From a virus, in the IMG/VR virus record IMGVR_UViG_3300010233_000280, positions 319 through 22,269 of that record: a DNA stretch of 21,951 nucleotides, one strand, 5' to 3'. Numbering within the stretch: position 1 is the stretch's first letter; every line of letters begins with the position of its first letter. This document shows positions 3,929-8,847 of this stretch, piece by piece. The translations under genes and the position numbers were made by a program. The notes beneath the pieces are model-generated. The model saw nothing but the letters and a program-made list of their open reading frames with translations. It was not told where the DNA came from and did no database searches.

Positions 3929-5125
3929 ATGTCTAATCTCATGATAAACGCAACGCGCATCCGCATCTATCCAACCGGCCAACAGGCGCAATCTCTCGCT
4001 GTCCAATTCGGCTGTGCGCGGTGGGCTTGGAACAATGCGCTTGCTGCATCACAAGAACTCTACCGTGCAACCGGCAAAGGCTTAAACTATCACGCAATGG
4101 CAATCCGCCTTCCAAAACTCAAACAGGAACATGAGTGGCTGCGCGATGCCGATTCCCAATCCCTCCAACAATCATTGCAGCATCTATCCCGCGCCTATGA
4201 AAACTTCTTTGCCAAGCGCGGCAAATACCCTCGTTTCAAGTCTAAGCACGGTCGCCAGTCCTTCCAGTATCCACAGCGCGTGAAGCTAAATGGCACGCGC
4301 ATCTATCTGCCTAAGGTGGGCTGGGTGAAATGCGTTGTGCATCGTGAGATCATTGGCACATTCAAAACCGTGACCATCAGCCGAAGCGCTTGCGGGCAGT
4401 TCCATGCCTCAATCCTTACCGACAATGGCGAGGCTATGCCAGAAGTATCGACGGACGGAAAAGCAATCGGCATTGACGTTGGCCTTACGCACCTTGCTGT
4501 CACAAGCGACGGATCAAAGTTCGATAATCCCCGCCACCTTCGCAAGGCGGAAAAGAACCTAAAGCGGAAGCAGCAAAGCCTATCTCGGAAGGTGAAAGGC
4601 TCAAAGAGCCGAGCCAAAACTCGGCAACTGGTGGCGCGGGCGCATGATCGAATTGCGTGCGCCAGAAAAGACAATCTTCACAAGGTATCCCGCCGTATCG
4701 TAAACGAAAATCAAGTGATCGTTACGGAGAATCTTAACGTAAAGGGGATGACGAAAAACCACAATCTATCCAAAGCAATCTCGGACGCTGGGTGGTCAAC
4801 CCTCGTTAATTTCCTCGAATACAAAGCGGCGCGAGCCGGTAAAGCGTTCGTGAAGATTGATCGGTGGTTTCCATCAAGCAAGGCTTGCTCAGACTGTGGG
4901 GCGATTTGCGATAAGATGCCGCTCGATGTTCGATCATGGAAGTGTGCCCACTGCGGAGCAAGCCATGATAGGGACATCAATGCGGCCAAGAATATCCGCG
5001 CCGAAGGGTTGCGGATATTGGCCGGAGGGACTCCGGCTTCTGCGAGTGGAGGGACGATCAGTCAGCAAAGGAAACTTGTTTCCGGCGCTGCGCGTCCCGT
5101 TGAAGCTCGAAGCCCCCGGCTTTAG
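3929..5125 (+). CDS. tnpB: TnpB, RNA-guided endonuclease of IS200/IS605 family
   Basis: This 398-aa protein has the full TnpB architecture. The N-terminal wedge/REC-type region (residues 6-130) starts with RIRIYPTGQQ and QFGCARWAWNNAL. It is followed by RuvC-I GIDVGLTHLAV with Asp183, RuvC-II VIVTENLNVKGM with Glu267, a zinc finger with Cys320, Cys323, Cys339 and Cys342, and RuvC-III HDRDINAAKNI with Asp349. All three catalytic acids are present, so it is probably active. TnpB proteins are RNA-guided DNA nucleases that cut the empty donor site and promote element retention. The last codons overlap the predicted omega-RNA hairpin. The start may also be ATG 3941. It lies between two phage early genes and is a clear insertion. 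Confidence 0.93.
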   Translation: MSNLMINATRIRIYPTGQQAQSLAVQFGCARWAWNNALAASQELYRATGKGLNYHAMAIRLPKLKQEHEWLRDADSQSLQQSLQHLSRAYENFFAKRGKYPRFKSKHGRQSFQYPQRVKLNGTRIYLPKVGWVKCVVHREIIGTFKTVTISRSACGQFHASILTDNGEAMPEVSTDGKAIGIDVGLTHLAVTSDGSKFDNPRHLRKAEKNLKRKQQSLSRKVKGSKSRAKTRQLVARAHDRIACARKDNLHKVSRRIVNENQVIVTENLNVKGMTKNHNLSKAISDAGWSTLVNFLEYKAARAGKAFVKIDRWFPSSKACSDCGAICDKMPLDVRSWKCAHCGASHDRDINAAKNIRAEGLRILAGGTPASASGGTISQQRKLVSGAARPVEARSPRL

Positions 5126-5987: not shown

Positions 5988-6703
5988 GTATAATCCATGA
6001 TGTTGAGCAAGGCTCAGATGCTTGGTTGAAAATCCGCCTGGGCGTCCCAAGCGCCTCAAACTTTCATCGCATCCTCCAGCCCACTACAGGCAAGCTCTCT
6101 ACGGCAAAAGGGGACGATAAGAAACTGTCCGAGAAGGCCAAGGGCTATGCCTTTGAACTTATCGCTGAGAAGATACTTAATCGTCCGATGGAAGGCCTAG
6201 AGGGGCTGAAATGGATTGAGCACGGTAAGCAATATGAAGATCAAGCCGCACTGACGTATGAAATCATTAATGATGTGGCACTGCGCAAGGTTGGGTTCAT
6301 CACTACTGATGATGGCCTTTTAGGATGCAGTCCTGATCGTCTAATTGATGGAGGAAAAGGAGGCGTGGAGTTCAAATGTCCAGCCCCCAACACCCATCTA
6401 GCCTACGTGTATGAAGGTTTTGAAGGTGACTACATGCCGCAAGTTCAGGGGCAAATGTATGTCGCCGAATTAGATTTCGTGGATCGCTGTTCTTACCATC
6501 CAGAGCTTGGCCAATGGCCAGAACGTACTATGCGCGACGATATTTATATCTCAAACATGGGGCCAGCACTGCGGCAGTTCTCCGATCTTATGCATGAGAT
6601 GATGGAGGTTATTAAATCACGCGGCATCATCATTGCACCACGGGAATTTAAGAACGCCGCTGATGTGGAGCTTGCTCCAATTGCTGACGAGATTCCGTTA
6701 TGA
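5984..6703 (+). CDS. YqaJ-type phage exonuclease (lambda Exo-like)
   Basis: The 239-aa protein shows the YqaJ/lambda-exonuclease fold signatures: QGSDAWLKIRLGVPSASNF (9-27), the helical WIEHGKQYEDQA (77-88), the catalytic CSPDRL with Asp118, the paired VEFKCP with Glu129 and Lys131 (a PD-(D/E)xK core), and QVQGQMYV (153-160). It would degrade one strand of double-stranded DNA ends processively, giving the 3' overhang bound by the ERF protein. It is coupled to erf by a four-base overlap, and its own stop overlaps the next ATG. Length is normal for the family, and no key residue is missing. Confidence 0.92.
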   Translation: MSIIHDVEQGSDAWLKIRLGVPSASNFHRILQPTTGKLSTAKGDDKKLSEKAKGYAFELIAEKILNRPMEGLEGLKWIEHGKQYEDQAALTYEIINDVALRKVGFITTDDGLLGCSPDRLIDGGKGGVEFKCPAPNTHLAYVYEGFEGDYMPQVQGQMYVAELDFVDRCSYHPELGQWPERTMRDDIYISNMGPALRQFSDLMHEMMEVIKSRGIIIAPREFKNAADVELAPIADEIPL

Positions 6704-6948
6704 CGAACGAAGAATTAACCGCTGCAATCATTGAAGGCCACAAGGCCAACAAGAAGCGCAATCAGATTGCCGCCGACCTGAAAATAGATCCAGTTCGATT
6801 GGATATCTTTATATCCACGAACAATCTTTCACGCACTAAGCTTGGATTTCAACCTTTGTTCGGCCAGATTATTCCAGCGGCTGAAAAGCCCATCAGGGCG
6901 AAAATGTCGGAGGGTGAAATCGCAATGCTCGGTAGTGTCTCAGTTTAA
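6700..6948 (+). pseudogene. 5' part of a phage gene split by the 1801-bp cassette
   Basis: The ATG overlaps the YqaJ stop (ATGA). The first 77 codons (MTNEELTAAIIEGHKANKKR..., with an AADLKIDPVRLDIFI stretch that looks helix-turn-helix-like) end exactly at the inserted element. The last five codons, GSVSV, and the TAA come from the element's inverted repeat. Joining 6700-6930 to 8740-8847 restores a single 112-aa frame with no mismatch, which shows that this is the disrupted third gene of the ERF/YqaJ operon. The intact protein is small, basic at its start, and of unknown function. The truncated 82-aa form could still be made. Confidence 0.75.
6923..6930. repeat. Left copy of 8-bp target-site duplication
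   Basis: CAATGCTC directly precedes the left inverted repeat and is repeated exactly at 8732-8739 right after the other end. Position and identity fit a duplication made on insertion. Confidence 0.85.
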
Positions 6949-6950
6949 AA
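6931..6950 (+). repeat. Left terminal inverted repeat of the cassette
   Basis: GGTAGTGTCTCAGTTTAAAA here is the exact reverse complement of 8712-8731. Identity stops at the next inner base. It supplies a stop codon (TAA, 6946-6948) to the interrupted gene. Confidence 0.88.
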
Positions 6951-6993
6951 GTTAAAGAGTTTCCAGCCTATCGCAAATTTCCCAACGCCCCTA

Positions 6994-7015
6994 TATAATG
7001 CTTACCGACAAGCAT
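6994..7015 (+). promoter_or_regulatory. -10 element and palindromic operator at the left of the cassette
   Basis: A perfect TATAAT lies at 6994-6999. An 18-base palindrome, ATGCTTACCGACAAGCAT (6998-7015; six-base arms), overlaps its end, near the expected transcript start. No good -35 box is visible 17 bases upstream, so the promoter may need an activator or be weak. Confidence 0.4.
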
Positions 7016-7031
7016 GATATGGAGCGAGAGA

Positions 7032-7256
7032 ATGTCCAACAATGATATGCCCTTCTTTAAATGGTGCAGGCAAGAGATTGCCGATTGTCAGGGGCTTTTA
7101 GAGAGGTATGAATCTGGCTCCATGCGCTTACGGCGGGGACCAGCTGGCGGCCCCTTAGAAGACATCACTGAAGCTGAAATTGCCAAACTAAAGATTGAGA
7201 TTAGTAACTTATCAGCTTTTCTTGAGCGGCACAGCCTAGAGAACACCAATGCCTAA
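7032..7256 (+). CDS. Cassette passenger 1: small helical protein, 74 aa
   Basis: I prefer ATG 7032 to ATG 7014: the sequence GGAGCGAGAG just before 7032 is a usable ribosome binding site, and the 7014 ATG lies inside an operator-like palindrome. The protein has two predicted helices (WCRQEIADCQGLLERYESG and ITEAEIAKLKIEISNLSAFLERH) separated by a short basic loop with RLRRGPAGGP. This is a helical-hairpin arrangement that suggests dimerisation. No known family is recognised. Its 3' end overlaps the next gene by 8 bases, so the two are probably translated together. Confidence 0.6.
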   Translation: MSNNDMPFFKWCRQEIADCQGLLERYESGSMRLRRGPAGGPLEDITEAEIAKLKIEISNLSAFLERHSLENTNA

Positions 7257-7482
7257 AGGTCCCAAAGGACAGAAACGCCCGGCTGACGTGATAGGCGCTG
7301 CCGTTATGGTCGCCCGTATCGCCACGGGTGAGATCGAAGATAAGGCCCAAAATGACGGAAAAGACCCTGCGGCCAAAGCCTTAGGCAAGAAAGGCGGGGT
7401 GGCCCGCGCCAAGGCTATGACGCCGGAGCGGCGGGCAGAGATTGCCAAAAAGGCCGCCGCCAGCAGATGGAACAAAAAATGA
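7249..7482 (+). CDS. Cassette passenger 2: basic KGG-type small protein, 77 aa
   Basis: The start is ATG 7249, overlapping the end of passenger 1. The N-terminus is very basic (MPKGPKGQKRPADVIGAAVM). Residues 38-76 carry DPAAKALGKKGGVARAKAMTPERRAEIAKKAAASRW, a lysine/alanine-rich segment with a KGG motif and an ERR-EIAKKAA-SRW pattern. Similar proteins are common in Alphaproteobacteria and are often labelled RNA-binding or histone-like without direct proof. It probably binds nucleic acid through the basic helix; whether DNA or RNA is not visible. A stop at 7480-7482 leads into the promoter region of passenger 3. Confidence 0.75.
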   Translation: MPKGPKGQKRPADVIGAAVMVARIATGEIEDKAQNDGKDPAAKALGKKGGVARAKAMTPERRAEIAKKAAASRWNKK

Positions 7483-7484
7483 CT

Positions 7485-7561
7485 CTGTTCTATCCTTATA
7501 CTATTTGTCCTTGATTTTTTAGAACAGGTCTGTACTATCCTCGGAAATGACTTTACCGAGG
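7485..7561 (+). promoter_or_regulatory. Promoter and operator repeats of passenger 3
   Basis: TTGATT (7511-7516) and TACTAT (7533-7538) are spaced by 16 bases. TCTGTTCTATCCT (from 7485) and TCTGTACTATCCT (ending 7541) are near-identical direct repeats. TGTTCTA near 7487 and TAGAACA near 7520 form an inverted pair that overlaps the promoter spacer. A second palindrome, CCTCGG (7539-7544) / CCGAGG (7556-7561), spans the likely transcript start and touches the Shine-Dalgarno GAGGAG. Autoregulation by the downstream winged-helix protein is an inference. Confidence 0.5.
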
Positions 7562-7569
7562 AGCGTAAA

Positions 7570-8370
7570 ATGACTGTAATTAAAGAGGTTAAGGATGAGC
7601 CGGATGCCAAGCGCCCACGGGCACAGTCTGGCACGGCTTACCCGTATTTCAATCTTGATGCCTCTATAAAGGTGGCGGCGATAATTTATGAGCGCGGGGG
7701 CGGCGCATGCACTGCGGACCAGCTCGCTTCTTTTCTTGGATATAGTGGTGTCCGCAACGGAACATTTCTGACGCGCGCTTCATCGGCAAAGCTTTTTTGC
7801 TTAATCGAAGCGCAAGGCGAAAAATACAGCCTTACTGAACGCGGTTACGCGATTATCACTCCCGTCATGCCAGAAGACCCGATCAACGCAAAGGTTCGTG
7901 CCTTTCTTGCTGTTCCGCTTTTCAATCTCATTTATGAAGAGTTCAAGGGAAAAACCCTGCCGCCGGAAATAGGGCTGCGTAATCTTTTTGAAAACAAATT
8001 TAAGATTGTGAAGGACCGCATAAACCCAGCCCTGAGGGTGTTCTATGAGTCCGCCGAACAGGCTGGTTTCTTTACATTAAACGGGGACCGCTCAAGGCTA
8101 ATTATGCCCATAACACAGGCCTCAGCGACTTCTCCTCATCTGCCCTCTGCATCGGAGATCAAGGAACCTACCTCTCCTCTGCCCCCCCAAGAGAAGCCGC
8201 GATTCAGTGGCGGTGGAGAAGGCCCTCCTCCTGGCGTTCACCCCGCCATTGTTGGGTTATTGCGTGAACTTCCGGCCCCGGGAAAGTGGTCCGGCAAAGT
8301 CAGGTTTATGAGGGCTTTTCAAAACACTTTAGATTTCATCTACCCAGATGATGAAGATTCTGCGTCATAA
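7570..8370 (+). CDS. Cassette passenger 3: predicted winged-helix protein, 266 aa
   Basis: Residues 24-100 (YPYFNLDASIKVAAIIYERGGG... DQLASFLGYSGVRNGTFLTR... YSLTERGYAII) look like a winged helix-turn-helix. Residues 105-180 form a second helical domain with LAVPLFNLIYEEFKG, LPPEIGLRNLFENKFKI and ALRVFYESAEQAGFF. A Pro/Ser/Gly-rich linker (about 184-222) leads to a conserved-looking tail, HPAIVGLLRELP ... FIYPDDEDS (224-264). The layout resembles a family of uncharacterised proteins (possibly DUF5343-like) found in accessory regions. It has no DDE, HUH or recombinase motif, so it is not the transposase. SD GAGGAG precedes ATG 7570. The stop lies in the loop of a 9-bp hairpin. Confidence 0.7.
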   Translation: MTVIKEVKDEPDAKRPRAQSGTAYPYFNLDASIKVAAIIYERGGGACTADQLASFLGYSGVRNGTFLTRASSAKLFCLIEAQGEKYSLTERGYAIITPVMPEDPINAKVRAFLAVPLFNLIYEEFKGKTLPPEIGLRNLFENKFKIVKDRINPALRVFYESAEQAGFFTLNGDRSRLIMPITQASATSPHLPSASEIKEPTSPLPPQEKPRFSGGGEGPPPGVHPAIVGLLRELPAPGKWSGKVRFMRAFQNTLDFIYPDDEDSAS

Positions 8371-8550
8371 GACGCAGAAGCGGCTCGGTGAGACGAGCCG
8401 TCCGCAATGCGCCAACGAGATAAGGGGGATAGGTAGTGTTAAGAAGAGTTTGATGCCCCAACAGATCCACGGGGTGGCCTGAGGGTCAGCGGGTGAGTGA
8501 AGGTGCTCTAACACCAACACTCATCCCGCAAGGCTTTTAAAACCCTGGTA
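8358..8550 (+). ncRNA. Putative structured RNA: run of adjacent hairpins
   Basis: Hairpin 1 is TTCTGCGTC (8358-8366) / GACGCAGAA (8371-8379), perfect, with the passenger-3 stop in its loop. Hairpin 2 is CGGCTCG (8381-8387) / CGAGCCG (8394-8400), also perfect. Three more helices then abut without spacers: CCCC (8456-8459) / GGGG (8471-8474); TGGCC (8475-8479) / GGTCA (8484-8488); and an 11-bp stem 8489-8499 / 8518-8529 with one bulged T, capped by GGTG (8502-8505) / CACC (8512-8515). No reading frame explains this stretch. It ends just before a tRNA-like fold. I recognise no known RNA family. Hairpin 1 may also serve as a terminator. Confidence 0.45.
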
Positions 8551-8621
8551 GGGGGCAGCAGGTTCGCGGGACAGGGACTTTCCATTCTCCACCCGACGGT
8601 TCGATTCCGTTTGCCTCCACC
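8551..8621 (+). ncRNA. tRNA-like fold without a clear anticodon arm
   Basis: GGGGGCA (8551-8557) pairs over seven positions (one G-T) with TGCCTCC (8612-8618), followed by A-CC and a T-run. Upstream of the 3' strand is a normal T-arm: GACGG (8595-8599), loop TTCGATT (8600-8606), CCGTT (8607-8611). The 37 bases between have GGG-A in a D-loop-like place but no clean D stem and no convincing 7-base anticodon loop. GGTTCGCGGGA resembles the D-loop region of tmRNA, but no tag frame is present. It could be a decayed tRNA, a tRNA-like 3' end of the upstream structured RNA, or a mimic. Probably not a working tRNA. Confidence 0.4.
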
Positions 8622-8711
8622 TTTTTCAATTTATAACATATTGAGCTTACTGTCAAAATTAAATTTTTGATTAAAGATCAAGGCCTTGGTGCGTCCAAGC
8701 CGATAGAACGT
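8622..8711. other. AT-rich noncoding spacer before the right end of the cassette
   Basis: A T-run directly after the tRNA-like fold could end its transcript. The rest is AT-rich, with AAATTTTTGATTAAAGATC-like sequence, and carries no gene. Confidence 0.5.
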
Positions 8712-8731
8712 TTTTAAACTGAGACACTACC
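8712..8731 (-). repeat. Right terminal inverted repeat of the cassette
   Basis: TTTTAAACTGAGACACTACC is the exact reverse complement of 6931-6950. Confidence 0.88.
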
Positions 8732-8739
8732 CAATGCTC
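8732..8739. repeat. Right copy of 8-bp target-site duplication
   Basis: CAATGCTC matches 6923-6930 exactly and abuts the right inverted repeat. Confidence 0.85.
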
Positions 8740-8847
8740 TATGCAGGGCGCCGATATGAGGATTATAAGGTACGCTCCTCCGGCGCGTCTATAAATAAGC
8801 CGATATGGAGCGGGGAAGTCTTCACGGTTTCTTCGATGGCGTTTTAA
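8740..8847 (+). pseudogene. 3' part of the phage gene split by the cassette
   Basis: Thirty-five codons (YAGRRYEDYKVRSSGASINK then PIWSGEVFTVSSMAF) and a TAA continue the frame of 6700-6930 once the cassette and one 8-bp repeat are removed. The stop ends exactly one base before tRNA-Gln, so the original operon ran straight into the tRNA. The fragment has no start of its own and is probably not translated now. Confidence 0.72.

Follow-up and report, generated by a model that had tools for sequence, protein, structure and literature searches.

The question raised by this locus is what is encoded by the gene-free stretch that follows the last gene of a small phage-borne cassette. The window, i.e. 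the whole stretch of DNA analysed (21,951 nt), is part of a virus record 23,960 bases long. An initial annotation had proposed a candidate structured RNA with a tRNA-like 3' end that might work with the basic KGG-type protein of the cassette. In the reading favoured here, to which we assign a probability of roughly one half, positions 8371-8621 form a leader-plus-tRNA-type RNA module of a transposase-less KGG/IS1-like element, whose 3' end would be generated by tRNA-processing enzymes.

The cassette spans positions 6931-8731 (1801 nt) and is bounded by perfect 20-nt terminal repeats and an 8-bp target duplication. Its features are as follows.

6923-6930, no strand: left copy of the 8-bp target-site duplication CAATGCTC, read directly and repeated at 8732-8739
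6931-6950, plus strand: left terminal inverted repeat GGTAGTGTCTCAGTTTAAAA of 20 nt, with 100% complementarity to 8712-8731
7014-7256, plus strand: open reading frame of 80 aa, for which a search for relatives found none
7249-7482, plus strand: basic KGG-type protein of 77 aa, hallmark of the element family, with copies of 44-83% identity in most family elements
7570-8370, plus strand: P3, 266 aa, with two predicted winged-helix domains (AlphaFold2, pLDDT 72)
8712-8731, minus strand: right terminal inverted repeat, 20-nt perfect partner of the left repeat
8732-8739, no strand: right copy of the 8-bp target-site duplication CAATGCTC, read directly

On direct reading, the phage frame starting at 6700 is continuous once the flanks are joined across the 8-bp duplication. 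Since the joined flanks restore an uninterrupted phage gene, the cassette is a clean insertion; the small gene that it splits has flanks at 6700-6948 and 8740-8847. The plus-strand open reading frames of the cassette comprise the 80-aa frame, KGG and P3, with no transposase among them, and no plausible plus-strand gene was found in 8371-8711. The boundaries of the element and its family are established: with its 20-bp terminal repeats, 8-bp duplication and KGG protein, the cassette is a non-autonomous copy of the KGG/IS1-like transposon family, which often moves or persists without an enzyme of its own, as this copy does.

Family members were collected with a 16-base segment of the terminal repeat as query, which matched at least 119 viral stretches, placing the family in more than 100 viral contigs. 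The viral sample was taken among the matches listed and is hence not random. Among these, most bounded elements had 8-bp duplications and a KGG relative, and many had a transposase; in intact copies among the matches listed, the left end was taken up by KGG and the transposase frequently extended to the right repeat. The transposases are IS1-like, matching NCBIfam NF033558 and Pfam PF03400 at scores below the NCBIfam cut-off. Insertion sequences of the IS1 family share these transposase models and the 8-bp target duplication, whereas the KGG/IS1-like elements additionally carry the KGG protein, passengers and tRNAs. Passenger functions were assigned by inspection, except for P3, KGG and the transposases. 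Nine elements (L185, L187, L191, L209, L218, L233, L234, L247 and L248) carry passengers that by inspection resemble toxin-antitoxin or defence genes, comprising XRE/ImmA-type pairs, AAA ATPases, a methyltransferase, and DUF4065-like and NYN-like proteins. Shortened transposases were seen at L204:8940-10788, L174:7047-7822, L234:3766-6472 and L213:9526-11597. Elsewhere in the phage, the window holds an IS605-type OrfB/TnpB gene (3929-5125; Pfam OrfB_IS605, E 1.6e-28).

The gene-free region makes up 251 of the 1801 nt, about one seventh of the cassette as first annotated, and on the plus strand holds no plausible gene. The hairpins and the tRNA-like module lie at the places initially given, and the three directly abutting hairpins were recovered by folding.

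8380-8401, plus strand: hairpin 1, GCGGCTCG GTGAGA CGAGCCGT, from folding, directly after the P3 stop codon
8455-8475, plus strand: hairpin 2, from folding, first of the three abutting hairpins
8476-8487, plus strand: hairpin 3, short, from folding, paired differently in alternative folds of the whole region
8489-8529, plus strand: hairpin 4, GCGGGTGAGTG..CACTCATCCCGC enclosing a GGTG/CACC stem, the strongest of the hairpins and present in the MFE and centroid structures
8551-8621, plus strand: tRNA-like module of 71 nt without anticodon arm, consisting of acceptor and T arm, then ACC
8622-8626, plus strand: T-run (T5) directly 3' of the module, read directly and likewise found after the L158 and L206 tRNAs

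Hairpin 1 may terminate the P3 message. A plus-strand search of the region found no promoter-like site, a result that weighs against the favoured reading and under which any transcript may be plain read-through from P3. The Rfam search proposed in the initial annotation was run on the region and gave nothing at the gathering threshold. Chance folding of G-rich intergenic sequence would fit the longest unbroken helix, whose 9 bp are not unusual (167 of 300 shuffles reach the same or a greater length). Against it, region 8371-8630 has an MFE z-score of -2.6, with 3 of 200 shuffles equally stable, local segments of 120 nt go down to z = -4.2 and -4.4 (30 shuffles each), and the tRNA-like pattern is absent from all shuffles, the combination of acceptor and T arm occurring in 0 of 20,000 region shuffles and 0 of 300 window shuffles. 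Chance folding is therefore hardly credible as an account of the region; compared with chance, the hairpins taken alone are suggestive.

The module itself corresponds to the initial description of a tRNA-like fold with a good acceptor stem and T arm, no anticodon arm and a T-run behind it. The acceptor (8551-8557/8612-8618, GGGGGCA/TGCCTCC) forms 7/7 pairs including G3:U70, the T stem (8595-8599/8607-8611) forms 5/5 pairs within a T arm GACGG TTCGATT CCGTT, and the module ends with a discriminator A and CC before the T5. The acceptor and T arm are thus established as intact, and the tRNA-like part, as a sequence, is certain. Compared with a canonical tRNA, the acceptor and T-arm pairing is present, whereas the D and anticodon arms are absent, as the interior measures 37 nt and about 41 are needed. 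At 8551-8621, neither ARAGORN nor the Rfam tRNA model (RF00005) gave a match, and an exact search of viral contigs for the 3' end of the module found none. An attachment site, which would consist of only the 3' half of a tRNA gene, was rejected: the module also has the 5' acceptor strand, in exact complementarity.

As to its origin, alphaproteobacterial tRNA-Ala(UGC) (GGGGGCA..TGCCTCCACC) is the closest match to the acceptor and 3' end. The D-loop leans weakly towards tmRNA: compared with alphaproteobacterial tmRNA (GCAGGTTCGCGGGAC vs ACAGGATCGACGGAC) it gave p = 0.037, one of three comparisons, with p = 0.09 for beta/gamma tmRNA and p = 0.70 for tRNA-Ala. The module was treated as Ala-type, with either a tRNA or a tmRNA as its putative ancestor. 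It resembles the tRNA-like domain of tmRNA (RF00023, RF01849) in its G3:U70 acceptor, its T arm and the lack of an anticodon arm, and differs from tmRNA in having no coding region, pseudoknots or tag and in its length (71 nt compared with about 360). A tmRNA as such was rejected, given the lack of a tag reading frame and pseudoknots and a score of 15.5 bits against a 47-bit threshold; permuted alphaproteobacterial tmRNA has its halves in the opposite order. When the short stretch was searched alone, RF00023 matched 8551-8622 at these 15.5 bits with 328 interior model positions deleted. The same model also matches ordinary tRNAs, archaeal ones included, usually at about 25-40 bits, so that the match says nothing in favour of tmRNA. 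Titration of AlaRS, SmpB or EF-Tu by a mimic of the tmRNA tRNA-like domain would account for the G3:U70 pair, the discriminator A, the missing anticodon arm, the D-loop and a 3' end that matches beta/gamma tmRNA at 22 of 28 positions. This 3' end is, however, equally or more similar to tRNA-Ala, RF00023 does not discriminate, and the D-loop p-value is weak, which leaves such a mimic very improbable.

The main rival to the favoured reading is a relic, in which a captured tRNA-Ala gene decays behind hairpins that do no more than terminate the P3 message. Consistent with it, the acceptor and T arm are near-identical to alphaproteobacterial tRNA-Ala(UGC) (29-31 of 34 positions), hairpins of unrelated sequence also adjoin or directly follow the gene in relatives of P3, and conservation is shown by no homologue, none for the window's own RNA having been found in any collection searched. 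Decay would have been uneven, however: the middle of the module is no more similar to tRNA-Ala(UGC) than shuffled sequence and thus unrecognisable (contrast of outer and middle parts, Fisher p 0.004-0.034), while all 12 stem pairs are intact. In addition, the hairpins have no subsequent T-run, and a search of the plus strand of the region found no terminator-like site. We regard the relic as possible, if on the doubtful side.

The favoured reading draws on a layout that recurs in the family. Among the matches listed, a tRNA was present in 6 of 38 distinct regions upstream of transposases (L158, L189, L204, L258 and, twice, L275), in each case on the transposase strand and with 106-141 nt between its 3' end and the gene downstream. 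A strong hairpin was found in 6/6 upstream regions with a tRNA and in 4/32 without (Fisher p = 7.6e-5). Within KGG elements or next to them are five further tRNAs (L003, L205, L206, L212 and L268), and a strong hairpin precedes all 11 element tRNAs (10 contigs; among the matches listed). The 110 nt before the element tRNAs had a median z of -2.5, compared with -0.4 at control phage tRNAs (p = 0.004; control set of 12 phage tRNAs only); as one control, L274, is a second copy of L003, this test is conservative. Chromosomal transposase copies were sampled afterwards as a held-out check: 2 of 37 upstream regions (L291 and L305) had hairpin and tRNA at the same place, and at two further held-out loci (L279 and L284) a UUA tRNA with a hairpin leader is convergent to KGG, the L279 KGG protein being 83% identical to that of the window. 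The recurring layout is thereby established, and it suggests an undescribed kind of mobile RNA module; among the matches listed, most family elements have no tRNA.

In six viral and two chromosomal copies, the unit has a fixed place and strand before the transposase, with terminators or T-runs 3' of the tRNA. This would also suit an insulator, in which hairpins and tRNA-like site cut passenger read-through and so limit expression of the downstream transposase. Odd anticodons and armless forms would be explained as well, since only the half recognised by RNase P and RNase Z is needed. Yet four leader-tRNA units are convergent beside KGG rather than placed before a transposase, most transposases among the matches listed have no such unit, the window copy has no transposase left that needs protection, and the repeated UUA anticodon points to decoding. 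An insulator is accordingly improbable.

Four copies (L212, L268, L279 and L284), all with a UUA anticodon, were alignable over leader and tRNA. Their consensus leader is built from a closing helix of 8 bp, a conserved AUAAC segment and a hairpin of 11 bp; of its 21 pairs, 6 carry changes on both sides in one or more of these four sequences. For the hairpin alone, covariation exceeded that in 498 of 500 shuffles and in every slide (n = 4 sequences), which establishes covariation in the leader of these other family members. A covariance model built from the four leaders (model R1), with rough E-values, matched outside its training set at L189 (E 5e-4), L275 (E 2e-3) and L300 (E 3e-4) and more weakly at L144 (E 0.016), and all four new matches adjoin KGG or transposase genes. 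A pattern search for the leader elsewhere returned the four known copies only. In the six copies with a tRNA, 6-13 nt separate leader end and tRNA; a leader without a recognised tRNA lies at L300:403-481 (minus strand) beside KGG and at L144:3631-3706 (minus strand) beside a transposase. Leader and tRNA are thus separable, given that most family elements lack the tRNA and L300 has the leader alone.

When window positions 8365-8640 were searched with model R1 and filters off, the best score was 6.6 bits, on the wrong strand. As the model is not matched, homology of the window hairpins to this leader is unsupported, and it is by layout only that the window copy appears to be a divergent or reduced relative of the hairpin-plus-tRNA units. 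It shares with them the element family, KGG, the hairpins before a tRNA-type end and the T-run after the module, and the sequence upstream of its module (z -2.93) falls within the range of the eleven other element tRNAs. The module is found close to the inner edge of the right repeat, where the transposase gene would come next, a place compatible with the units in a copy without transposase. The functional RNA initially proposed thus stands in part: a non-coding stretch rich in hairpins and ending in a tRNA-like module does exist in the cassette, and its layout recurs across the same transposon family, most members of which bear KGG. The suggested cooperation with the KGG protein is not supported, as no functional link was found and KGG is the hallmark of the whole family, not the partner of the RNA.

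RNase P and RNase Z act on minihelices of acceptor and T arm, and AlaRS charges minihelices with G3:U70. Under the favoured leader-plus-tRNA-type reading, the stretch would be transcribed after P3, and RNase P and RNase Z would recognise the acceptor/T-arm minihelix and cut the transcript. These cuts would give a hairpin RNA and a small tRNA-like RNA defined ends, and the 3' terminus of the cassette RNA would be set by the module. AlaRS could charge the module through G3:U70; lacking an anticodon, the module cannot decode.

The UUA anticodon occurs in 4 of the 11 viral element tRNAs (L212:9080-9192, L268:4856-4943, L158:10304-10387 and L003:4912-5001), and the chromosomal copies add two (L279:307-404 and L284:2932-3018). 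All six, from phages and bacteria, have a chassis that by inspection is of the Ser or Leu type and lie in or beside KGG/IS1-like elements; the anticodon loop CTTTAAA is found in three (L158, L212 and L268). Because the synthetases for Ser and Leu do not read the anticodon, these tRNAs seem to be functional ochre suppressors. That they serve read-through of a UAA stop in KGG was rejected, the KGG stops at five UUA loci being TAG, TAA, TAG, TAG and TGA. The tRNAs of L189, L204, L205, L206, L258, L275 and L291 have by appearance an Arg- or Glu-type chassis; non-cognate anticodons on such element tRNAs are AGU, GCU, CCC, CGU, ACU and UAC, and the L204 tRNA has no canonical T loop.

In a wider reading, the IS1-like transposons found in phages and bacteria would harbour an RNA gene of a kind so far undescribed, made up of a conserved structured leader and a single tRNA, often an ochre suppressor on a Ser or Leu chassis, with the window copy as an armless, non-decoding alanyl acceptor; we offer this tentatively and consider it doubtful to unlikely. 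If it were true, the element would use the tRNA processing and charging machinery for a non-decoding purpose. Transposable elements that hop between phages would, if the unit is functional, spread suppressor tRNAs with a conserved RNA leader, and the armless form in the window raises the question of what a non-decoding tRNA-like RNA does for a transposon.

Several known systems are comparable. As described in a review (PMC7609411, citing Mukai et al. 2017), irregular tRNAs or allo-tRNAs have a Ser chassis whose synthetase ignores the anticodon; their anticodons are diverse and non-cognate, ochre included, some carry the Ala G3:U70 pair, and one allo-tRNA pseudogene overlaps a transposon-related reading frame. 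They differ from the window module in having an anticodon and a 12-bp acceptor branch of 8/4 or 9/3 rather than 7/5, and the section of the review that describes them mentions no structured leader. Theta ribozymes adjoin phage tRNAs, often suppressors, which they are thought to mature (PMC10879173). They lie 3' of the tRNA and their associated suppressors are 99.7% amber (PMC10879173), whereas in the KGG/IS1-like units the structure lies 5' of the tRNA and the suppressor-like anticodon is ochre (UUA); Rfam gave no match to an HDV-type or theta ribozyme at the window region or beside the element tRNAs. Plasmid-borne tRNA array units, considered to be anti-defence (PMC12803027), have tRNA cargo on mobile DNA in common with the KGG/IS1-like elements, which usually carry a single tRNA with a hairpin leader instead of arrays.

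Searches for the family of P3 returned no match, and a fold search returned weak winged-helix-like matches only, none at E <= 0.001. Relatives are rare (31-38% identity) and come from phages and bacteria; none were found in phage and plasmid record collections. The first viral contig with a P3 relative, L003 (35% identity), carries a UUA-anticodon tRNA 87 nt downstream of P3, then a KGG gene, and shows no family terminal repeat within five mismatches. A Hydrogenophilales chromosome (L021) combines P3, hairpins, KGG and an IS1-like transposase in one element with the same terminal repeat as the cassette and an 8-bp duplication. An RNA linked to P3 was rejected: hairpin-rich DNA adjoins P3 at eight loci, yet the sequences do not align, and other family elements were seen without P3. 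At L040:1501-2740 and L041:1110-2190, P3 and a hairpin-rich non-coding stretch are inserted into a run of ordinary chromosomal genes, and no transposase is visible there. At L275:2629-7584, a P3 gene lies between two direct IS1-like copies, each with hairpin, tRNA and transposase, an arrangement that is possibly a composite transposon.
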